From Cytobacillus sp. NCCP-133 (GTDB lineage Bacteria; Bacillota; Bacilli; Bacillales; Cytobacillaceae), in NCBI RefSeq assembly GCF_026011715.1, contig NZ_BRVM01000001.1, positions 591,021 through 655,020 of the forward strand: a stretch of DNA of 64,000 nt, given 5' to 3'. Position 1 is the first letter of the stretch, and the number at the start of each line of letters is the position of its first letter. Positions 273 through 62,757 of this stretch are shown piece by piece. The position numbers and the translations under genes were made by a program. Under the pieces are notes generated by a model, which ran no database searches, had not been told where the DNA came from, and saw only the letters and a program-made list of their open reading frames with translations.

Positions 273-425
273 AGAAAAGCGGAAGCGCCTGGTTAACGAA
301 GGGACGCAGATTAAGAGCGCCACACTCCCCAAAGGCTGCAGCTTTCGTTCGTGCAATGAAAAAGCTGACGAAGCTTTCCTTGCCCTCTGTATTCAAGCAC
401 AAAAAGACGAGTCACTCGTCACCTG
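273..425. repeat. Degenerate copy of dispersed intergenic repeat family R
   Basis: The segment starts AGAAAAGCGGAAGCGCCT and continues with GGGACGCAGATTAAGAGCGCCAC. Both blocks recur in the better copies near 52249 and 60382. It fills the ytaF-mutM gap. A 61-codon frame crosses it, but that frame has no ribosome binding site and consists of repeat sequence. Confidence 0.6.
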
Positions 426-1520: not shown

Positions 1521-4154
1521 TTACTTCGCATCAAACCATGTCGGTCCATAAGAATAATCCACTTTCAATGGGACCTTTAATTCAACTGTATTCTCCATTA
1601 CATCAGGCACGATTTTTTTCAGCGTCTCAACTTCTTCTTCAGGAGCTTCAAAGATCAGTTCATCGTGCACCTGCAGCAATAAGCGGGCTTTTACTCCCTC
1701 TTCTCGCAGCCGGTCAGCCATATCAATCATGGCTTTTTTAATAATATCCGCGGCACTTCCCTGAATAGGCGTGTTCATCGCTGTACGCTCTGCAAAACTC
1801 CGGAGGTTAAAATTTCGGCTTGTTATTTCAGGCAAATACCTCCTCCGATGAAGAAGGGTGGATACATAGCCCTTTTGCTTGGCTTCAAGAATGATCTCAT
1901 CCATATATTGCTTAACCCCTTGATAGCTTTCAAGATAGCGGTCAATAAATTTCCCTGCTTCCTTTCGCGTTATGCCAAGGCTTTGAGAAAGGCCGTAGTC
2001 ACTAATTCCGTAAACAATTCCAAAGTTAACAGCCTTTGCATGCCGGCGCATGTTGGAAGTGACTTCATCTGCCCTGACATGGAACACCTCCATAGCGGTT
2101 TTGGTATGAATGTCCATATCTTCATTAAATGCTTCGATAAGCTTTTCGTCGTCCGCAATATGAGCCAGCACACGCAGTTCAATTTGGGAATAATCTGCCG
2201 CAAACATGACCCAGCCTTTTTCTGAAGGGACAAATGCCTGCCTAATCTTTCTCCCTTCCTCTAAACGAATCGGTATATTTTGCAGGTTCGGGTCTGTCGA
2301 GCTTAATCTCCCCGTTTGTGTAAGTGCTTGATTAAACCTGGTATGAACTTTGCCAGTTTCATTATTAACAACCTTCAGCAGGCCCTCGATATAAGTGGAT
2401 TGCAGCTTTCCAAGCTGGCGGTAATGCAGGATATCACGGATTATTTCATGTTCGCTTTCGAGCTTCTCAAGGACATCTGCAGAAGTTGAGTAACCTGTTT
2501 TTGTCTTTTTTATTACTGGCAAGCCCAGTTTTTCGAAAAGAACCACGCCCAGCTGCTTAGGAGAATTAATGTTAAAGGCTTCCCCTGCCAGCTCATGGAT
2601 TCGTTTTTCAATTTCGTCCAATTTAGAGAGAAGTTCCTGGCCCATTGTTTTCAGCCGCTCCAGATTGACTTTGATCCCTGTGGATTCCATATCAGCCAAA
2701 ATTAGGGATAAAGGCATTTCCAGATCATAAAAAAGTTCTGATTGCTGGTTTTCTTTAAGCTCGCCATCCAGCTTATCCTTGAGCGTCAGCAGTGCAGCGG
2801 CTTTTCTAGCTAAATGCCCAGCAAGCTCCTTTTCTTCCGGTATTCTTCTCTTCGCGCCCTTCCCATAGAATGATTCATCTGATTGTACTGCATGATAACC
2901 ATGATTTTTTGCAACCGAAGCAATATCTTCTATGGTTTGAGAAGGATTAATTAAGTAGGAAGCAATATAAAGGTCAAAATCAGCGCCTTTTAAATGAATT
3001 CCATGATGCCGGAGCGAAACTTCAGATCGCTTTGCATCATAAACTGTTTTCTTTTTCGTTTCATCTTCAGCCCATTTTTTAAACACGTCCGACTCAAGGG
3101 CCTTATCTTTAGGAAGAAAATAATTCCCCTCTACACTGGCAATTGAAAAACCGATGATATCCGCATAATGGTAATTATCATCGAGCACTTCCACATAAAA
3201 TGCATTCTCATCTGAGAACATTTCACCTGTAATTTCTTCCGCAATTGTAAATTCGATCTCTTCCAGATTCTCTTCTGTTGCTTCTATATCTGCCCCCAGC
3301 TTTTCAAGCAGAGAATTGAAGCCAAGCTCTTTAAAAATGCCTACTACTTTTTCTTTCTCGTATCCTTCATACTTAATCTCTTCAACCTTTATTTCTACCG
3401 GGGCCTCTCTTGTGATGGTCGCAAGCTCCTTGCTCATCAACGCTTGATCCTTGAACTCTTCCAGCTTTTCTTTTAGCTTTTTCCCGCTGACCTGATCAAT
3501 GGACTCCATTAGCTTTTCAAGTGTGCCAAATTCCTTCAGTAATTTAAGCGCGGTTTTCTCCCCAACTCCAGGCACCCCAGGAATATTATCTGAACTATCC
3601 CCCATAAGGCCTTTCATATCAATAATACGATCGGCAGTTATCCCGTATTTCTCTTCAATATGGGCAGGTGTATATTCCTCAATATCCGTGATGCCCTTTC
3701 TAGTGATGCTGACAGTCACGGCATCCGAACTTAACTGTGTTAAATCCTTGTCCCCAGAGATTACTTTTACTTCATACCCGTCTTTTTCAGCTTGAAGCGA
3801 TAGCGTTCCGATAATATCGTCCGCTTCATAATTTTCCAGTTCATACCTTGAAATCCTGTAAGCATCAAGGAGCTCCCGGATATAAGGAAACTGCTCTGAA
3901 AGCTCAGGAGGCGTTTTCTGCCTTCCTCCTTTATATTCACTGAACGTTTTATGACGGAAAGTCGTTTTTCCGGCATCGAATGCGACAAGGAGATGTGTAG
4001 GTTTTTCATCTTCAAGGATTCTCTGCAGCATCATGGTAAACCCGTAAACTGCATTTGTATGTATTCCTTTATCATTGTTTAAAAGCGGCAAAGCAAAGAA
4101 TGCTCGATACGCGATGCTGTTGCCATCTATCAGAACCAGTTTTTTTTCACCCAA
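1521..4154 (-). CDS. polA: DNA polymerase I
   Basis: Family A polymerase of 877 aa, used for Okazaki-fragment processing and repair synthesis. Residues 1-300 are the 5' nuclease (VLIDGNSIAYRAFF, then GLMGDSSDNIPGVPGVGEKTA). A 3'-5' exonuclease-like domain follows without the usual catalytic acidic motifs, as in other Bacillus PolA. From about 470 to the end is the polymerase domain, with motif A (DYSQIELR), motif B (RRHAKAVNFGIVYG) and motif C (QVHDEL, residues 828-833). The start is TTG at 4154, with GAGGAGG 7-8 nt upstream; the next codons match B. subtilis PolA. It lies downstream of hflC, separated by a strong terminator. Confidence 0.97.
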   Translation of the reverse strand: MGEKKLVLIDGNSIAYRAFFALPLLNNDKGIHTNAVYGFTMMLQRILEDEKPTHLLVAFDAGKTTFRHKTFSEYKGGRQKTPPELSEQFPYIRELLDAYRISRYELENYEADDIIGTLSLQAEKDGYEVKVISGDKDLTQLSSDAVTVSITRKGITDIEEYTPAHIEEKYGITADRIIDMKGLMGDSSDNIPGVPGVGEKTALKLLKEFGTLEKLMESIDQVSGKKLKEKLEEFKDQALMSKELATITREAPVEIKVEEIKYEGYEKEKVVGIFKELGFNSLLEKLGADIEATEENLEEIEFTIAEEITGEMFSDENAFYVEVLDDNYHYADIIGFSIASVEGNYFLPKDKALESDVFKKWAEDETKKKTVYDAKRSEVSLRHHGIHLKGADFDLYIASYLINPSQTIEDIASVAKNHGYHAVQSDESFYGKGAKRRIPEEKELAGHLARKAAALLTLKDKLDGELKENQQSELFYDLEMPLSLILADMESTGIKVNLERLKTMGQELLSKLDEIEKRIHELAGEAFNINSPKQLGVVLFEKLGLPVIKKTKTGYSTSADVLEKLESEHEIIRDILHYRQLGKLQSTYIEGLLKVVNNETGKVHTRFNQALTQTGRLSSTDPNLQNIPIRLEEGRKIRQAFVPSEKGWVMFAADYSQIELRVLAHIADDEKLIEAFNEDMDIHTKTAMEVFHVRADEVTSNMRRHAKAVNFGIVYGISDYGLSQSLGITRKEAGKFIDRYLESYQGVKQYMDEIILEAKQKGYVSTLLHRRRYLPEITSRNFNLRSFAERTAMNTPIQGSAADIIKKAMIDMADRLREEGVKARLLLQVHDELIFEAPEEEVETLKKIVPDVMENTVELKVPLKVDYSYGPTWFDAK

Positions 4155-16671: not shown

Positions 16672-16705
16672 AGAAAAGCGCGGGGCGCCTTGGACACCCC
16701 TGAGG
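16672..16705. repeat. Fragment of repeat family R
   Basis: AGAAAAGCGCGGGGCGCCTT followed by GGACACCCC resembles the first 30 bp of the family copy at 52249. The rest is missing. It lies between fxsA and the pyk terminator. Confidence 0.5.
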
Positions 16706-27463: not shown

Positions 27464-27517
27464 ATAAAGTGAAACTTCAATCAGAGGGGGACATTATCCC
27501 CATTAATTGTTAGTTGA
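27464..27517 (+). repeat. Repeat unit A, left copy of an inverted pair
   Basis: This 54 bp unit begins ATAAAGTGAAACTTCAATCA and ends TTGTTAGTTGA. It matches the reverse complement of 29714-29767 at 50 of 54 positions. Both copies lie on the outer side of a unit B. Confidence 0.85.
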
Positions 27518-27655
27518 GGCCCACAGGACAAGAAAGGCTTCGTCAGCAAATCTTTTGGCAAGAAGAAAAAAGCGGTAGCTTTTTTTGAGGATAGTCATCG
27601 CACGATCAAAAGCGGCAGCTTTTGGGAGGACGTGAAGTTTTAGTCTTTGTTATTC
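27518..27655 (-). repeat. Repeat family R copy inserted between units A and B
   Basis: CTTCGTCAGC, CATCGCACGATCAAAAGCGGCAGC, CTTTTGGGAGGA and TTTTAGTCT appear in the order found in the reverse complement of the family copy at 52249-52490. The right-hand A-B pair lacks this block, so it was probably inserted here later. Confidence 0.6.
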
Positions 27656-27664
27656 TTTCCGGTC

Positions 27665-27743
27665 TTTACGGGCAGTTTGCCCCCCACTTATCCTCCTTTG
27701 ATTACACTGAGTCTTGAATTGGGGGTCTAACTGCCCGTTAGAC
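27665..27743 (+). repeat. Repeat unit B with terminal inverted repeats, left copy
   Basis: This 79 bp unit begins TTTACGGGCAGTT and ends AACTGCCCGTTAGAC, so its ends are inverted repeats of about 10 bp. It is homologous to 29622-29701 in the opposite direction. It ends 45 bp before the ytrH start and so occupies the ytrH promoter region. Confidence 0.8.
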
Positions 27744-29621: not shown

Positions 29622-29701
29622 GTCTAACGGGCAGTAAGACTCCCACTTCGAGACTCAGAAAAATCATTGGGAGTATTATCAGGAGCCCAACTGCCCGTAA
29701 A
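29622..29701 (-). repeat. Repeat unit B, right copy
   Basis: Starts GTCTAACGGGCAGT and ends ACTGCCCGTAAA (80 bp). It is an inverted copy of 27665-27743 with the same terminal inverted repeats. It occupies the nrnA upstream region. Confidence 0.8.
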
Positions 29702-29713
29702 GGCCCGATTGGT

Positions 29714-35856: not shown

Positions 35857-36065
35857 TCTTATACCCGTTCAGCATCAAACCCATTCCCGTTAATGACCCT
35901 CGGAGCGATATGATTTAATCTACAGTATCCTATGCCATCTATCACCATTGGGAAGGTTGTCCATTTAGTTCTTTATATAATGGTTTACCTATTTGTATAA
36001 ATTCAAAACCAAAGCAATTGACTCCCGCTTTAAGACTGGAAGACATTTAACAGGTTATTAAGAAC

Positions 36066-36190
36066 AGCACACAGCGCCTTGACCACAAAGGAACGCAGAC
36101 TAAGGCCGCCGCGTCCTGTGGCAACAACTGCATGACCCCCATCCTCCCAAAAGCTTCCGCTTTTAGTCGTTGGATGTTTATGCTATCTTA
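36066..36190 (+). repeat. Repeat family R copy
   Basis: CAGCGCCTTG, AGGAACGCAGACTAAGGCCGC, CGTCCTGTGGCAAC, TGCATGACCCCCATCCTCCC and AAAAGCTTCCGCTTTTAG occur in the same order as in the copy at 52249-52490. Confidence 0.75.
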
Positions 36191-40299: not shown

Positions 40300-40500
40300 G
40301 ACAGCCCATCCTCCTCGAGCAGGAACTGCCAGTCAGAAAAATTATGAAAGTAAACAGCATGAAAGGAAAAGGGACGTGGCTTTTAGGGTTGAAGGACTAG
40401 CCAATCCCTTTCAGAAGGAAAAAACGCCCACCCTTTTTCGGAGGACGGTTAGCTAGACAGGGCTTGTGATCTCGAGGGGGCAGGGCTGCTGCGCTAGACG
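40300..40500. repeat. Mosaic copy of repeat family R
   Basis: GGGACGTGGCTTTTAGG and GGCTTGTGATCTCGAGGGGG with TAGACAG and GCGCTAGAC blocks match parts of the copies at 52249 and 60382, but in mixed order and orientation. It fills the 310 bp between the coiled-coil gene and moaB. Confidence 0.55.
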
Positions 40501-50614: not shown

Positions 50615-52216
50615 TTAATTTGCTGCTTCGTATACGAGTTTGCCGCTGATGACGGTTTTGTCTACTGTTATGCCCGCAATCTGCTGCTTTGGCATGGAGA
50701 AGATATCGTCTTTTAGTATGGTGAAGTCTGCGTAATATCCTTCTTTAATAACGCCCCTATCATTTTCATGGGATGCCGCATAGGCGCTTCCTTTTGTAAA
50801 TAAACTGACAGCTTCATATACCGATAGCGCTTCACTTGGATAATAAACGGTCTTGTTCGGATCATCAATATTGGTTCTTGTCACTGCTGCATGAATGCCA
50901 AGAAAAGGATTGGCCGGTTCAATCGGGGCATCTGAACCGCCTGCACATGGCACTCCTTCCTCTAAAAGAGTTTTCCATGCGTAGCAATACTCCATGTTCT
51001 CTTCACCAATGCGATCAATCACCCAAGGAAAATCAGAAGCTGTGAACCTTGGCTGGATATCCAGGATCAAAGGCAATTGCTTCGCTCTGCCGATAAGATC
51101 CTTTCTTAAGATTTGGGCATGGATCAGCCTGTCTCTTCCCACACCTTTCAAAGGATGCTTTTCGATTGCATTCAATGCCATTTCAAAAGCCTGATCTCCT
51201 ATGGTATGAACGGCTACTGGCATATCATGCTGACGAGCTTTTTCCACAAGGCCATCAAGCTGTTCCTGTGAGTAAATAGCAACTCCCGATGTGGTTGGAT
51301 CGTCTGCGTAAGGGTGGCTTAATAATGCGGTTCTTCCCCCAAGAGCTCCATCGGCAAAAATCTTCATGGCCCCAAACTCTATATATTCACCTCCGCCCAA
51401 AAAGCTTCCACCTGCCTCAGCCATATCCTCAATGACCTCATGATGAACAAGAAGGTGTGCACGAAACAGCATATCTTCTTCCTCAATTACTTGTTTGAAA
51501 GCCTGATAAGTATGTCCGAAACCTCCATAATAATTGAGATCCTCGGTATGACCTCCTGTCAGCCCGAGCTTATAGGCGTCTTTTATCGCTGCACGAAGAG
51601 CCTTCTTAAGGTAATTGTCCGAAACAGCGGGAAGCACATTGAACAGAAGCTCCTGTGCCTGGTCCTTTAATAGGCCATTAAGTTTCCCCTGTTTATCCTT
51701 ATCGATCACTCCCCCAGGAGGACACTCAGTATTTTCGGAAATATTGGCCTTTATTAACCCAAGAGAGTTGACTGCCAATGCGTGCCTGCACACACGTTTG
51801 AGCATCACAGGGTGATTAGGAACATATTGATCAAGCTCATGGGCATATATCGGTTCAGGCAGATCCCATAAGTTCTCATTCCATCCTTCTCCAATTACCC
51901 AGTCCCCTTCTTCAACTGTTTCTGCAAAACGCTTTACAGCTAAGAGAACCTCCTGCTTTGATGTGTATTTTGATAAGTCGAGCCGTATCAGCCTTTCTCC
52001 GTGGCCGATCAAATGCATATGGCTATCAACAAAACCAGGAAGCATTGTTCTGCCCTCCAAATCTATTTTTTGCTGGATTTCATTTTTATACTTCTTTTTT
52101 AAATATTGGCTGCAGCCAATTTCAATTATTTTGTTTCCCTTTGTTAAGACAGCTTCTGCCTGATGATTTTCATGCTGAAGGGTATAAATCCTTCCCCCGT
52201 ACCATAGCGTTCCCAT
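50615..52216 (-). CDS. ytcJ: YtcJ-like amidohydrolase
   Basis: 533 aa of the NfdA/YtcJ amidohydrolase family. Metal ligands are in PGFVDSHMHLIGHG, AVHTIGDQAF, LIHAQIL and GGSDAPIEPANP. N- and C-terminal beta-sandwich segments (IIEIG...; ADFTILKDDIFSM) flank the barrel. It probably hydrolyses an amide or formamide; the substrate is unknown. The start is ATG 52216 (MGTLWYGGRIYTL), with AAAGGAG upstream; the frame opens seven codons earlier, inside that site. Confidence 0.9.
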   Translation of the reverse strand: MGTLWYGGRIYTLQHENHQAEAVLTKGNKIIEIGCSQYLKKKYKNEIQQKIDLEGRTMLPGFVDSHMHLIGHGERLIRLDLSKYTSKQEVLLAVKRFAETVEEGDWVIGEGWNENLWDLPEPIYAHELDQYVPNHPVMLKRVCRHALAVNSLGLIKANISENTECPPGGVIDKDKQGKLNGLLKDQAQELLFNVLPAVSDNYLKKALRAAIKDAYKLGLTGGHTEDLNYYGGFGHTYQAFKQVIEEEDMLFRAHLLVHHEVIEDMAEAGGSFLGGGEYIEFGAMKIFADGALGGRTALLSHPYADDPTTSGVAIYSQEQLDGLVEKARQHDMPVAVHTIGDQAFEMALNAIEKHPLKGVGRDRLIHAQILRKDLIGRAKQLPLILDIQPRFTASDFPWVIDRIGEENMEYCYAWKTLLEEGVPCAGGSDAPIEPANPFLGIHAAVTRTNIDDPNKTVYYPSEALSVYEAVSLFTKGSAYAASHENDRGVIKEGYYADFTILKDDIFSMPKQQIAGITVDKTVISGKLVYEAAN

Positions 52217-52248
52217 AAATCTTTTCTCCTTTACCATCCTAAAATATT

Positions 52249-52490
52249 AGAAAAGCGCAGTGCGCCTTGTCCACCCCCGACAAGCACAAGACGAGCCTCT
52301 CGGAAAGGCGTCCTTTGCCTTTTTGGGCGGCTTGCCCGAAATGTGGAGGCGACTGCCCATTCAAGGAACGCAGACTAAAAGCGCCACGTCCTGTGGCAAC
52401 GTCTGCATGACCCGCATCCTCCCAAAAGCTAACGCTTTTAGACGTGCGATGCTTATGCTGACGAAGTTTTCCTCATGGAGCTAGACAGTT
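52249..52490 (+). repeat. Repeat family R, best copy in the window
   Basis: Starts AGAAAAGCGCAGTGCGCCTT and ends GGAGCTAGACAG. Inside are GACAAGCACAAGACGAGCC, AGGAACGCAGACTAAAAGCG, CACGTCCTGTGGCAACGTC, TGCATGACCCGCATCCTCCC and the palindrome AAAAGCTAACGCTTTT. It accounts for nearly all of the 353 bp ytcI-ytcJ gap. Confidence 0.8.
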
Positions 52491-52532
52491 ATCAAAGTTA
52501 AAATATTTTACTTTCCTATATAGTAACAAAAA

Positions 52533-52555
52533 TACAGGCGGAATTCCCGCCTGCA
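52533..52555 (-). terminator. Terminator of ytcI
   Basis: CAGGCGG (52535-52541) pairs with CCGCCTG (52547-52553), followed on the minus strand by TATTTTTG. It is 15 bp after the ytcI stop. Confidence 0.82.
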
Positions 52556-52569
52556 TTCTTTATGGCAAT

Positions 52570-54156
52570 TTAGTTTTGAGCTGAAGCTGTTGCTTCTTTC
52601 TTTCTTAATTCCACACGCATGATTTTACCTGATGTCGTTTTTGGAAGCTCAGATAGAAATTCAATTTTGCGCGGATATTTATAGGGTGCTGTAAGTTTTT
52701 TCACATGCTCCTGCAGGTCAAAAACGAGGTTTGGATCGCTCTGGTCAACACCTTCCCTTAATATAACAAAAGCTTTGACAATACTTCCGCGAACCTCATC
52801 CGGGCTTCCGACAACAGCACATTCAGCTACATAAGGGTGCTTTACAAGGGCGTCTTCAACTTCAAATGGCCCAATCGTATAGCCGGAACTGATGATGATA
52901 TCATCGCTGCGTCCTTCAAACCAAAAATAGCCATCTTCATCTTTTTTGGCTTTATCGCCCGTAATATAGAAATCACCGCGGAATTGCATTGCCGTTCTTT
53001 CAGGGTCCTTATAGTAGTTCTTAAATAACGCAGGAGTTTCAACATGAACGGCAATATCGCCAACTTCGCCCACCTCGCAAATTTCTCCGTCTTCATTGAT
53101 AATTTCAACCCTGTTGCCTGGAGTCGGTTTACCCATAGAGCCTGCTTTGAGCTCCATATCTTTCGTGATGCCGACCAACAGGGTGTTTTCCGTTTGGCCA
53201 TAGCCATCACGCACATTCACATTAAAGTGCTTTTTAAATGTATCTATTACTTCGCGATTTAGCGGTTCACCAGCTGACACAGCACTATCAAGCTCCCGCA
53301 GCTTATATTCATGAATATTCTCCACCTTCGCCATGAGCCTGTATTCTGTAGGAGTGCAGCAAAGGACATTAACCTTGTAATCTTCTAAAAGCTGCAAGTA
53401 TTTCTTCGGCTCAAACTTTCCATTATAAACAAGACCCGTAGCTCCTGAACCAAGAACGGAAAGGAATGGGCTCCAAATCCACTTTTGCCATCCCGGGCCT
53501 GCAGTTGCCCAAACTGTATCTCCTTCATTAATGCACAGCCAGTTTGGGGCAGCTGTTTTCAGGTGAGCGAATGCCCAGCCATGTGTATGTACAACCCCCT
53601 TAGGGTTTCCAGTTGTTCCAGATGTATAAGATAGAAACGCCATATCATCCTTTGCCGTATCAGCCAATGGCAATTCATCAGAAGCTTTTTTCATTGCTTC
53701 GTCCAGCTGAATCCAGCCTTCCGCCTGCCCGCCAACCACAAACTTTGGCACGCCTGCTGCTTCCTGAATATCTTTAAATTGTTCAACATATGGATAATAA
53801 CTTACAATACCTTTTACATCCCCATGTTTAATTCGGTATTGAAGGTCTTTCGTGCGCAGCATCTCTGAACTTGGAATGACGACAATTCCGGCCTTTAATG
53901 CAGCAATGTAGACTTGATAGGATTCAATCAGCCTAGGAACGATAATAAGAATAACATCTCCCTTTTGCAAACCGTTTTCTAAGAAAACGTTTCCAATTTT
54001 ATTCGCATTACGGATCAGTTCACTGTATGTTACCTCTTTTTTCTGTCCCTCCTCATTTTCCCATTTGATGGCAAGTTTGTCCTTTTCTCTCGCATACCGC
54101 TCCATTTCTGATACGAGATTGTATTTCTCCGGTGCAATTAAATCTTCCCGTTTCAT
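52570..54156 (-). CDS. ytcI: Acyl-CoA synthetase (YtcI / MbcS-like, AMP-forming)
   Basis: 528 aa, ANL superfamily. The P-loop is FLSYTSGTTGNPKGVVHTHG, the adenine region is VRDGYGQTENTLLVG, the hinge is FYITGDKAKKDEDGYFWFEGRSDD and the catalytic Lys is in LPKTTSGKIMR. It resembles the medium- and branched-chain acyl-CoA ligase MbcS group rather than long acetyl-CoA synthetases. The start is ATG 54156 (MKREDLIAPEKYNL), 7 nt from AGGAGG; the frame extends 20 codons before it. It is monocistronic with its own terminator. Confidence 0.92.
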   Translation of the reverse strand: MKREDLIAPEKYNLVSEMERYAREKDKLAIKWENEEGQKKEVTYSELIRNANKIGNVFLENGLQKGDVILIIVPRLIESYQVYIAALKAGIVVIPSSEMLRTKDLQYRIKHGDVKGIVSYYPYVEQFKDIQEAAGVPKFVVGGQAEGWIQLDEAMKKASDELPLADTAKDDMAFLSYTSGTTGNPKGVVHTHGWAFAHLKTAAPNWLCINEGDTVWATAGPGWQKWIWSPFLSVLGSGATGLVYNGKFEPKKYLQLLEDYKVNVLCCTPTEYRLMAKVENIHEYKLRELDSAVSAGEPLNREVIDTFKKHFNVNVRDGYGQTENTLLVGITKDMELKAGSMGKPTPGNRVEIINEDGEICEVGEVGDIAVHVETPALFKNYYKDPERTAMQFRGDFYITGDKAKKDEDGYFWFEGRSDDIIISSGYTIGPFEVEDALVKHPYVAECAVVGSPDEVRGSIVKAFVILREGVDQSDPNLVFDLQEHVKKLTAPYKYPRKIEFLSELPKTTSGKIMRVELRKKEATASAQN

Positions 54157-54286
54157 TGGATTTCCTCCTAAAAATGTCATTATACTGATGCCTGAATCAA
54201 GATGATGTTCTATCAAAATTATTATACTAAATTATTACAAAATTTTAAATTATTTATTTTTTGAAAAATAATTTTTGCACACAAAT

Positions 54287-54330: not shown

Positions 54331-54534
54331 TTATTTTTGGAAACCGCCTAATTGCTGTTCAGCCATCTGAACTAAACGCTTAGTGATTTCTCCTCCTACT
54401 GAACCGTTAGCGCGAGAAGTAGTTTCTGCACCAAGGTTTACACCGAATTCAGTAGCGATTTCATACTTCATTTGGTCTAGAGCTTGCTGTACTCCAGGAA
54501 CTAGAAGTTGGTTTGAGCTGTTGTTGTTTGCCAT
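54331..54534 (-). CDS. sspA: Alpha/beta-type small acid-soluble spore protein
   Basis: 67 aa. Both SASP motifs are present, with the GPR protease site in [13 protein letters not shown] and the second in [19 protein letters not shown]. It coats spore DNA and protects it from UV. ATG has AAGGAGG about 9 nt upstream. A sigma-G type promoter lies directly upstream, so expression in the forespore is expected. It lies between ytcI and thiI as in B. subtilis. Confidence 0.97.
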
Positions 54535-54557
54535 GTGATTTCACCTCCTTGTGAGTA

Positions 54558-58749: not shown

Positions 58750-58770
58750 AAATTTACATAAGAAACCCCA

Positions 58771-58790
58771 ATGGCGGCTTTAAAGCCGCC
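58771..58790 (+). terminator. Hairpin after brnQ, without T-run
   Basis: TGGCGGC pairs with GCCGCCA around TTTAAA. Sequence after it is CCATCTACAATG rather than a T-run, so it may be a terminator whose tail was replaced by insertion of the IS110 element. Confidence 0.5.
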
Positions 58791-58872
58791 ACCATCTACA
58801 ATGAAAAAAATTCATCTCCTTCCCCAAAAGAAGTCTAACCCACAAAACCACTGTCCATAATGATCGTACAAT

Positions 58873-59009
58873 ACAACCAGGCTGAATGCTTTTTTGGTAG
58901 GTCTTCCGCGAAGATACCCTGTATAAGAAACTGGTTGTGACAGTATTGAAGAACCATTTACTGTACGAATAGTACGTATACAAAATTTTTGCATCATTTC
59001 TACTGTCAC
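58873..59009 (+). ncRNA. Candidate bridge-RNA region of the IS110 element
   Basis: Two large stem-loops lie in tandem. ACAACCAG (58873-58880) pairs with CTGGTTGT (58931-58938), enclosing GGTA..TCTTC (58896-58906) paired with GAAGATACC (58910-58918). GTGACAGTA (58937-58945) pairs with TACTGTCAC (59001-59009), enclosing GTAC/GTAC (58963-58975). Two successive structured loops upstream of the recombinase fit the published architecture of IS110 bridge RNAs, which carry a target-binding and a donor-binding loop. No guide-to-DNA pairing was established, so this is a structural candidate only. Confidence 0.35.
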
Positions 59010-59045
59010 CTGTATTGTTAATTTATTTTTTGAGGTGATTCTCCT

Positions 59046-60273
59046 ATGGAAGCGATGATTGAACGGTGTGCAGGCCTAGATGTACACCAAGAAACGATGG
59101 TAGCTTGTGTATTATTTGGACGATTAGACAGAAAGCCAGAAAAAACAATTGAAACGTTTGAAACTACGACAACGGATTTATTGGCATTAAGTGATTGGTT
59201 ATCTGAACGTGAGGTAACCGATATGGTTATGGAAAGTACCGGGGTCTACTGGAAACCCGTATGGAATATCCTCGAAGACACTTTCCGATTAGTTCTTGCA
59301 AATGCACGACACGTAAAAAATGTTCCAGGACGCAAAACCGATGTGAAAGATGCCGAATGGTTGGCGCAACTTTTACGATGCGGACTTATTGAGAGCACAT
59401 TTGTCCCACCAGAGGATATTCGCGATTTACGCGATCTGACTCGCTATCGAAAAAAATTAATTCATCATCGTACCTCGGAGCGAAATCACATTCACAAAAT
59501 TCTTCAGGATGCCAACATCAAACTAACCTCGGTTCTATCAAATATTTTAGGTGTTTCAGGACGTAAGATTCTTGAGGCAATTATCAACGGTGAAAAAATT
59601 GAAACCAAACAGCTACACGAACTGGTGGATAAGTGAACAAAAGCAAGTATTGCAGAGATTGCAAGTGTCATCAATGGACGGATGCGCCGTCACCATCGTG
59701 ATATGTTGAGTTACCACTGGGATCATATGAATTATCTAGAAAAAACAATTGAAGAGTTGGAAGAACAAATTGACAATCTTCTGTCTCCATATCGTAAACA
59801 GGTAGAATTGCTAGACACCATCCCAGGTGTAAACAAGAACGCAGCCGCCACATTTATCGCCGAGATGGGGGTTGATATGTCTGTAGTTAAATCCTCCAAA
59901 TATCTTGCTTCATGGGCTGGTGTTTGTCCCGGAAACAACGAAAGCGCCGGTAAAAAAAAACAAACAAAACCACACAAGGAAATAAAGCCTTGAAAACGAT
60001 GGCTGTCGAATGCGTCCTGGCTACTTCAAGACAAAATAAGCGAATTTCGTCCCATAGGAAAAGGATTAGTAAACGTCAAGGAAAAATGAAAGGGCGCGTT
60101 GCTTCCGCCCATTTAATTTTAACAATCGCTTACAACATTTTAAAAACAGGTGAACCCTATCAAGAACTAGGACCAGATTACCTCAAAGAGAAAGAAAAAC
60201 TAAAGAATTAAAAATGATCGAATACTTAAAAAGGAAAGGTTATACAATCGCAAATTCACAGGAAATCGCTTAA
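59046..60273 (+). pseudogene. IS110-family recombinase, broken
   Basis: The reading frame begins MEAMIERCAGLDVHQETMVA after GAGGTGATTCTCCT. The DEDD (RuvC-like) residues are in GLDVHQE, VMESTGVYWKPV and KTDVKDAEWLAQ; the C-terminal serine domain has TIPGVNKNAAATFIAEMG and LASWAGVCPGNNESAG. An in-frame TGA interrupts it at 59634-59636. The frame shifts in or near the A-rich run at 59952-59970 and again near 60205-60214, where the tail MIEYLKRKGYTIANSQEIA continues to TAA at 60273. Repaired length is about 409 aa. No functional protein is expected. Confidence 0.9.
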
Positions 60274-60381
60274 ATACTTTTATTGGTGATCAATTATAAA
60301 ACGACATATCTCCCCTTCAAAAAAAATCAGAAAGTGAAGGGTTTCTTTAGTATGCCTTCCATCCGAAATAGTTTTTCATAC

Positions 60382-60536
60382 AAAAAGCGCAATGCGCCTT
60401 GTCCACGAAGGAACGCAGACTAAATGCGCCACGTCCTGGGGGCCTCAAGCACAAGACGAGCCTCACGGAAAGGTGTTCTTTACCTTTCTGAACGAAATGC
60501 TTGTGACCTCGAGATAGTAGGCGCTGGAGCTAGAGA
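60382..60536 (+). repeat. Repeat family R copy
   Basis: AAAAGCGCAATGCGCCTTGTCCAC, AGGAACGCAGACTAAATGCGCC, CAAGCACAAGACGAGCCTC, GCTTGTGACCTCGAG and GGCGCTGGAGCTAGAG are shared with the copy at 52249, but the block order differs. Confidence 0.75.
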
Positions 60537-60575
60537 AATATCTAAGTTCAAAGTTATACCTTCTTTTCTGCAAAT

Positions 60576-60605
60576 AAAAACCAGATCCGATTGGATCTGG
60601 TTTTT
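60576..60605 (-). terminator. Terminator of ezrA
   Basis: AAAAACCAGATCC pairs with GGATCTGGTTTTT around a GATT loop, immediately after the ezrA stop. Confidence 0.9.
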
Positions 60606-60609
60606 AATA

Positions 60610-62295: not shown

Positions 62296-62757
62296 GTTAA
62301 AGCCCCCTGTTCTGTTCCGAGCCGATATGTATATATTCAGGTTTCAATTAAAATTTCGACCGTAAAGTGATCCTTCTAAATGGGTCCAACTGCCCAAGGA
62401 TAGCTATGTCAGCATCCTCATCGCAAGACCTGGCGTCAGGTTTTGCGAGAATGCGGGTATGCAGACATTCGTGGCATTTTTAGTCTGCGTTTCATAGGTT
62501 TGGCGCTTTCACATAACAAGTGTTTTTTTCAATGTTTTTATGATACCATGTAAACGACATTTATTGACTATTTATTTCTTTTTTTTATGAATTTATTACA
62601 CTATTTCAATTTAAGAAAACTGCTTTCCTAAAGCAAATAAGAAATAATAAAAACTTACCGCTCATTTTATTGAACAATATGAGTTTCATAATTACAAACA
62701 ATTCGCTTATTATTGCCTATTTCCTTCCTAATTAGAAAAGAAAGGTGATTCTCCTTA
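62296..62757. other. ezrA-hisJ divergent intergenic region
   Basis: 462 bp. A family R copy occupies 62395-62515. 62520-62757 is AT-rich and should contain the hisJ promoter, but I could not fix the hexamers. Confidence 0.45.
62395..62515 (-). repeat. Repeat family R fragment, reverse orientation
   Basis: GCATCCTCATCGCA, GAATGCGGGTATGCAGAC, GTGGCATTTTTAGTCTGCGTTTC and GGTTTGGCGCTTT correspond to the reverse complement of the copy at 36066-36190. It is preceded by TCCAACTGCCCAAGG, similar to the end of unit B. Confidence 0.55.

Follow-up and report, generated by a model that had tools for sequence, protein, structure and literature searches.

We have identified a small, folding, non-coding mobile element in the genome of Cytobacillus sp. 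NCCP-133, where it occurs in more than 100 copies; blocks of repeated sequence scattered between genes are its parts. These blocks are probably pieces of a non-autonomous element that enters at the A-tracts of terminators, for the most part in a single orientation. The element's anatomy, copy number, covariation, empty sites, recent gains, orientation and terminator adjacency are all observed directly. With it, an unexplained Rfam small RNA, Bacillaceae-1 (RF01690), becomes part of a mobile element, and a covarying hairpin unit that has no Rfam match in the window studied is added. Insertion is oriented and directed to terminators without inverted repeats, and four element-rich genomes of the genus lack three obvious enzymes. 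If the mover were a housekeeping enzyme, a route would be opened for structured non-coding DNA to spread in bacteria. For annotation, RF01690 matches in these genera should not be counted as independent sRNA genes.

The window is a stretch of 64,000 nucleotides, and the copy at 52249-52490 was taken as the starting point. This copy lies between two minus-strand ORFs (50615-52237 and 52570-54216) and holds no ORF of 90 or more amino acids. A first-pass annotation had described a modular family of blocks, varying in order and orientation, in the gaps between genes. Self-comparison of the window recovered the named blocks, with 97 nt at 87% identity common to the 52249 and 36066 copies (36088-36184) and 45 nt at 89% identity common to the 52249 and 60382 copies (60446-60490). 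RF01690 was the sole Rfam family above threshold in the window, with two matches that exceed its gathering score of 35 (Table 1). Genome-wide, RF01690 has at least 60 matches with E ≤ 0.001 (150 of 468 candidates scored), and 58 of these exceed the gathering score. A BLAST search with the 52249 copy gave at least 46 matches, 40 of 156 candidates having been scored. The foot motif, allowing up to three mismatches, was found at 116 genome sites, against none for a reversed-pattern control. The repeat family is therefore real, as these counts and the blocks shared within the window attest, and its matches are not restricted to the window but lie genome-wide. Among the sites first listed, those at 52249 and 60382 hold complete copies and those at 273, 36066, 40300 and 62395 partial or decayed ones; the site at 16672 is a head only, and that at 27518 belongs to a second family, family B. 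The family proper is referred to here as family A.

Table 1. Coordinates of the 52249 copy, of the other copies in the window, and of sites of families B and C. Positions are those of the window unless a locus is named; those of family C follow the orientation in which the loci were compared.
Feature	Position	Strand	Remarks
Head, AGAAAAGCG..GCGCC arm	52249..52274	+	right limit by eye
5' half of hairpin unit, CGACAAGCACAAGACGAG	52278..52295	+	module pattern match; unit covariation
Bacillaceae-1 RNA module (RF01690)	52359..52420	+	62.5 bits, E 4.5e-9; without 3' half of second hairpin
H3 insert, TCCTCCCAAAAGC..CTCA	52417..52475	+	begins in UCCU loop of Bacillaceae-1 hairpin 2; abuts foot
Foot, TGGAGCTAGACA	52476..52487	+	foot motif search
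A/T-rich tail (GTTATCAAAGTTAAAATATTTTACTTTCC..)	52488..52528	+	right limit uncertain
Terminator-like hairpin of minus-strand gene 52570-54216, faced by tail	52535..52553	-	by eye; kept at empty sites
Family A, whole copy	52249..52528	+	head, half of unit 1, arm of nested second unit, Bacillaceae-1, H3, foot, tail
Family A, complete copy	60380..60552	+	head, part of Bacillaceae-1, unit, foot, tail
Family A, partial copy	36063..36184	+	head, Bacillaceae-1 (36084-36145; RF01690, 48.5 bits), start of H3; no foot found; partly by eye
Family A, decayed copy	273..425	+	head, remains of Bacillaceae-1, H3; 273-382 in the block-by-block comparison
Family A, head fragment	16672..16690	+	head alone
Family A, decayed 3' half	40461..40500	+	unit strand and foot-like CTAGAC; partly by eye
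Family A, decayed copy	62395..62515	-	head, Bacillaceae-1-like and H3-like stretches; by eye, missed by module patterns
Family B copy, TTAGTTGAGGCCCACAGG .. CGGGCCTTTACGGGCAGT ends	27510..27676	+	carries H3 on minus strand
Family B site	29690-29707	-	
Family B site	L138 ~2630-2883		
Family B site	L143 9047-9406		
Family C site	L142 11208-11493		
Family C site	L143 11408-11692		
Family C site	L133 7479-7725		
Family C site	L146 4503-4567		

Aligned family A copies share fixed ends. The head reads (TA)AGAAAAGCG..GCGCCTTG.CCA, with the boundary falling between TA and AGAAAAGCG..GCGCC, and the foot reads GGCGCCTGGAGCTAGACA (short form GGAGCTAGACA) and is followed by an A/T-rich tail. Between head and foot lies a variable set of modules, which bears out the modularity first proposed. 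The simplest copies consist of head and foot with nothing inside (e.g. L069, L072), and the next simplest carry a single hairpin unit, itself about 120 nt long. In longer copies Bacillaceae-1 follows straight after the head arm, and further units stand head to tail or within the first unit. Islands that retain both ends number 39, and their lengths range over 62-769 nt. A varying number of inner modules between fixed outer ones is the mark of a BOX-like composite. The block order had been called shuffled, wrongly: in the copies read, the modules are nested in a fixed order on one strand. Orientation does vary, as had been claimed, in that whole copies differ in strand; within each copy read the modules share one strand. 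The 52249 copy, in which Bacillaceae-1 is followed by H3 and then directly by the foot, looks like a recombinant of these arrangements, and its right border would fall somewhere in ~52503-52528. An array of a 312-nt unit pair was seen in G017 (L129, G017:C4, 1815-6321), repeated 14.4 times head to tail with 99% likeness and sitting, by eye, straight after a gene's stop codon. This array is probably very young.

Bacillaceae-1 RNAs are built of two hairpins with (A/G)UCCU loops. In the window hairpin 1 is present, and hairpin 2 lacks its 3' half in both matches, where H3 begins; it is intact in other copies. Membership of RF01690 covers this 62-nt module alone, not the whole element. H3 is the block first noted as AAAAGC-N3-GCTTTT; it starts TCCTCC, ends CTTG and is usually 58 nt long, although some inserts measure about 100 nt. 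Its placement is exact: 50 of 53 H3 inserts lie at one of three points, namely either of the two UCCU hairpin loops of Bacillaceae-1 (hairpins 1 and 2) or the position directly before the TGGAGCT of the foot. We rely on this total, as the split between hairpins 1 and 2 is approximate owing to fuzzy loop classes; some of the 53 examples record a single insertion seen in two closely related genomes, and one example is contained within another.

The hairpin unit is a conserved folded nucleic acid, because its covariation exceeds that of both shuffled alignments and slid partners. Thirty of 39 unit sequences were kept for alignment, nine having been removed by hand as units with other modules or as spurious, and 18 of the 30 were used, mostly by dropping near-copies. 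On these 18 diverged units a 30-pair structure pairs 84.1% of cells. Cells changed on both sides numbered 83, against a shuffled mean of 26.1 (0 of 500 shuffles as high), and the covariation score was 0.412, against 0.079-0.180 for slid partners; because the structure was modelled on a single member (L129), this comparison favours it over the slid versions. Further pair types did not rise above shuffles (40 vs 41.0), and a four-pair helix (columns 14-17/114-117), few of whose cells pair, was excluded from the test. At Rfam thresholds the unit has no match in the window. For units the plus strand gives the better fold, in 23 of 30 cases with RNA parameters and in 29 of 30 with DNA parameters; for Bacillaceae-1 the minus strand does so, in 26 of 27 cases (RNA parameters). 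As a guide to the strand of function, G-U against A-C pairs were also counted, at 27 to 10 in one alignment and, with the four-pair helix omitted, 28 to 18 by hand count in the other; the evidence on strand is in conflict between the modules.

Copies are oriented with respect to the genes on their right. The right-hand gene, as given by mechanical ORF calls, is on the minus strand in 39 of the 47 copies with a called gene there; left-hand genes are of mixed strands. A terminator, defined as an A-run plus hairpin, reads towards the foot in 42 of 59 right flanks, compared with 29 of 450 stretches drawn at random from the same loci and with 4 of 61 left flanks, the last being a stricter set of left ends that replaced a first, too permissive set of 227. 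The observation that copies lie outside genes and often beside terminators is upheld. Terminators read the other way also follow 24 of the 59 feet (random stretches, 45 of 450; left flanks, 4 of 61) because many are bidirectional. The A-run lies 22-24 nt from the tail anchor in 26 of the 42 terminator-facing copies. The 60380..60552 copy adjoins a terminator-like hairpin (~60577-60606) downstream of ezrA.

TA precedes the head in 39 of the 53 heads, out of 61, that could be placed. Terminal inverted repeats were not seen by eye, as the head AGAAAAGCG.. and the tail end share just a short AAGAAA/TTTCTT. There was little sign of a long target-site duplication: direct repeats of at least 7 nt occur in 11 of 55 copies against a shuffled-pairing mean of 6.4, a weak excess. 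The bcr1 repeat makes a 5-nt target duplication, and none such was seen at family A sites. Because the element starts with A or G after TA, it could enter a TAA or TAG stop codon without destroying the stop; an ORF ends at the head itself in 5 of the 49 copies tabulated with flanking ORFs.

Insertion does occur. At the 52249 site, 17 of 20 syntenic relatives hold 83-98 nt without the element, and the other three hold a family B element instead. Recent events were sought between G005 and G006, which are 97.9% identical in one 13-kb region. Their 400-kb comparisons gave 41 events, of which 32 were examined (those classed as 'both' and long ones being omitted) and 18 were flagged as family A, by a flag that overlooked at least two family A sites (150062, 221085). 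Five of the 18 are clean gains, four belonging to G006 and the other to G005, with the site uninterrupted in the sister genome and in the outgroups G012 and G035. All five gains entered at an A-tract, on its 5' edge; a clear terminator stem abuts in four, and one site is without it. By eye, TA stands at both junctions in three gains and at one junction in the other two, with A-runs blurring the borders. The spread of the element can thus be described in part: insertions are polymorphic, their sites being empty in relatives, and they prefer one orientation and target the A-tracts of terminators.

We propose the following scheme. The base unit is a conserved folded hairpin of about 120 nt, set between a head of TA followed by AGAAAAGCG and a foot, GGAGCTAGACA, with its tail; such units stand singly, head to tail, or one inside another. 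Bacillaceae-1 has its place just past the head arm, and either its UCCU loops or the point directly ahead of the foot receive the hairpin insert H3 (~58 nt). Entry of new copies is at the A-tract ahead of an intrinsic-terminator stem, on the 5' edge of that tract and mostly in one orientation; inverted repeats are not involved, and TA at most is duplicated. The want of inverted repeats, the orientation bias towards the hairpin and the presence of H3 in loops together suggest that a folded single strand is recombined in trans. A trans-supplied enzyme may recognize both this strand and the hairpin of the terminator together with its A/T tract, and units may later be gained and lost through slippage or recombination. 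Host benefit would not be required to account for the copies, although some may serve as 3'-UTR structure.

Candidate movers were screened with four Pfam domains (Y1, IS630 DDE_3, reverse transcriptase and IS110) across 36 genomes of the genus. Y1 transposase was present in 23 genomes, DDE_3 (PF13358) in two (G018, G031), reverse transcriptase (PF00078) in 26 and IS110 (PF01548) in 33. G001, G010, G011 and G020, with 32-39 RF01690 matches, were without Y1, IS630 and reverse transcriptase domains, and G005 and G006, the sites of the gains, were without Y1 and DDE_3. Y1 (REP/RAYT) was rejected as mover, as nine of the 13 genomes from which it is absent hold 24-45 RF01690 matches; the window's genome has three Y1 matches, two with internal stop codons and one short. 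IS630 was likewise set aside as missing from element-rich genomes, though the element-rich G018 has DDE_3, and so was reverse transcriptase, missing from some element-rich genomes. IS110 is uninformative because it is nearly universal; it is absent from G015, G026 and G023, which have 0, 4 and 17 RF01690 matches. By eye, the ends of the window's IS110 show no similarity to those of the element. Genomes with no RF01690 match still carry domains, reverse transcriptase in G015 and reverse transcriptase with IS110 in G016. An autonomous partner with the same ends was sought as a head-foot pair from 433 nt to 26.8 kb in 1.66 Mb (400 kb from each of four relatives plus the window), and none was found. 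None of the four domain families is a convincing mover across the genus; a mover since lost, or one of another family, may be responsible.

A bolder reading of these results is doubtful. Family A would then stand for a class of mobile elements that lack terminal inverted repeats and insert by an apparatus able to read folded nucleic acid. Copies would be set against the A-tracts of terminators in a single orientation, and a second-order insert would set itself into the UCCU hairpin loops of a first-order module. The mover would lie outside the transposase and reverse transcriptase families tested, perhaps as a housekeeping enzyme, or an RNA copy would be primed on terminator T-tracts.

The last of these routes, retroposition, was also weighed as a full alternative, and we consider it unlikely. 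The A-rich 3' end of a plus-strand transcript would anneal to the terminator T-tract and prime copying into DNA in a SINE-like manner, and the orientation and A-tract border are as target-primed copying would leave them. Among 69 islands, 19 bore the right end only and 7 the left end only, although the head pattern may be less sensitive than the foot pattern. The plus strand, on which units fold better, would be the transcribed one, but Bacillaceae-1 folds better on the other. Six reverse transcriptase matches occur in G006, where four of the five gains are found; G005, with a single gain, shows just a fragment below the cut-off. PF00078 is absent from 10 of the 36 genomes, including the four element-rich ones named above.

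It is quite improbable that Bacillaceae-1 is a functional trans-acting sRNA gene whose copies form a dispersed gene family retained for its role. The motif is a curated Rfam sRNA of conserved structure and is listed as certainly RNA, and probably not cis-regulatory, in the tables of Weinberg et al. 2010 (PMC2864571). Against this, the copies vary among close relatives and occupy sites that are empty elsewhere, and the motif occurs within two element families with its loops often broken by H3. There was also no RF01690 match in G015 and G016 of the same genus. In a set made up of the window's genome and 60 relatives, 47 of 61 had an RF01690 match under a stricter filter, covering 14 of the 26 genera sampled; so, under such a filter, did only 4 of 299 genomes across the phylum, the window's own included. 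The exact unit motif was present in at least 120 stretches; among the 80 matches listed, the genera were Bacillus, Cytobacillus, Neobacillus, Peribacillus, Metabacillus, Siminovitchia, Sutcliffiella, Niallia, Lederbergia, Fredinandcohnia, Sporosarcina and Paenibacillus. Searches of phage collections gave no match and those of plasmid collections one weak match. The unit motif was seen once on a viral-classed contig, L388 (IMGVR_UViG_3300017655_000192), at 81-104.

That the copies are old, have no present mobility and vary through recombination, slippage and deletion alone is very improbable. Some differences point that way: where G005 and G006 differ by family A, the outgroups too hold extra sequence at 12 of the 18 events, which may be deletions or module changes. 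By eye, the seven events listed between G012 and G035 (99.6% identical) include at least two unit-number changes inside arrays and one missing tail piece. Over short times, module gain and loss may be commoner than insertion. The five gains, each with an uninterrupted site in three other genomes, nevertheless stand against a family without mobility. At another of the G012/G035 events (283540), a family A element lies by eye next to a ribosomal RNA gene in one genome, at what we take from its sequence to be a 23S rRNA end. Bacillaceae-1 RNAs reportedly have UCCU loops and lie in proximity to rRNA operons, and the element beside the 23S end fits that link.

A classical MITE of an IS630/mariner-type transposon, targeting TA and moved by its transposase, is strongly disfavoured and the least probable of all: the TA ahead of most heads and at both ends of three gains, and the 69 RF01690 matches of G018, one of the two DDE_3 genomes, agree with it, but PF13358 is absent from the window's genome, G005 and G006, the ends are by eye not inverted repeats, and orientation relative to terminators is unusual for such transposons.

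The insertion of a composite element at terminators, which we prefer, places family A beside several known systems, and the closest known kind is that of composite interspersed repeats such as pneumococcal BOX. As far as PMC3049150 was consulted, BOX (boxA-boxB(n)-boxC) is composite, intergenic and folding, with unit-number variation and repeats within repeats. The BOX of Streptococcus pneumoniae is the nearest in design, having in common fixed ends, variable inner modules and nested repeats. It differs in its terminal inverted repeats, likened in the part consulted to those of ISSpn2 (PMC3049150), whereas none were seen in family A, and family A insertion, unlike that of BOX, favours terminators; the likeness is drawn by description and not by sequence. 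The bcr1-bcr18 repeats of the Bacillus cereus group, nearest in host as belonging to a related genus, are intergenic, and some are MITE-like or structured and transcribed according to the parts of PMC3446304 consulted; this comparison is likewise by description and not by sequence. Bacillaceae-1 itself fits the module of the 52249 copy and at least 60 places in the genome, but here it makes up a single part of a larger mobile element that has ends of its own, and one of its loops often holds an insert. In the literature found under its name, judged by titles and the starts of abstracts together with the tables of PMC2864571, mobility is not described. New here are the terminator target and the recasting of Bacillaceae-1 as part of a mobile element.

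As for MITEs, family A lacks the terminal inverted repeats by which they are recognized. REP/BIME sequences are palindromic and intergenic, often lie at gene 3' ends and are moved by REP-associated tyrosine transposases. Family A is like them in its palindromes and in its intergenic position at 3' gene ends, and differs in that Y1 is absent from 13 of the 36 genomes, including G005 and G006. Group IIC introns insert straight behind intrinsic terminators in one orientation. The target and orientation are similar, but family A encodes no protein, the reverse transcriptase is missing in four element-rich genomes, and there was no Rfam group II intron match in the window. The EFAR repeats of Enterococcus are modular; a literature search for EFAR returned no titles about such repeats.

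Two further repeat families were encountered (Table 1). Family B is a composite with ends TGAAACTTCAATCAGC.. and ..CTGCCCGTTAGACTGCGATAA, and it also carries Bacillaceae-1 and H3 modules. In the L143 copy one tandem unit is without Bacillaceae-1 and the next unit has it. Family C comprises small elements with GGCTCTTTTCG-like ends and A/T-rich target duplications of about 8 nt, and is presumably ISL3-like. Some of its copies hold a hairpin module resembling H3 (CACCGCACGAAGAAAATGCG..GCATTTTCGAGGA).

Other features were noted in passing. The window holds an IS110-type element at ~58756-60190, its transposase broken across two open frames (PF01548, PF02371). Contig C23 carries a stretch 99% identical to it, and C7 a part that is 97% identical. 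Tandem repeats unrelated to these elements, each about 50 nt long, vary in copy number among relatives (G006 event 158571 and G035 event 272809; ..GATTAACTGCCATTTCTGTTACCCCTC.. and ..GATTAACTCCCATTTTCTCTTGACCACC..). An intergenic-looking stretch of the window at 54337-54535 is conserved, at 90-95% identity in three genomes; on the minus strand it reads by eye like a small acid-soluble spore protein gene, which we take to be an ordinary one.
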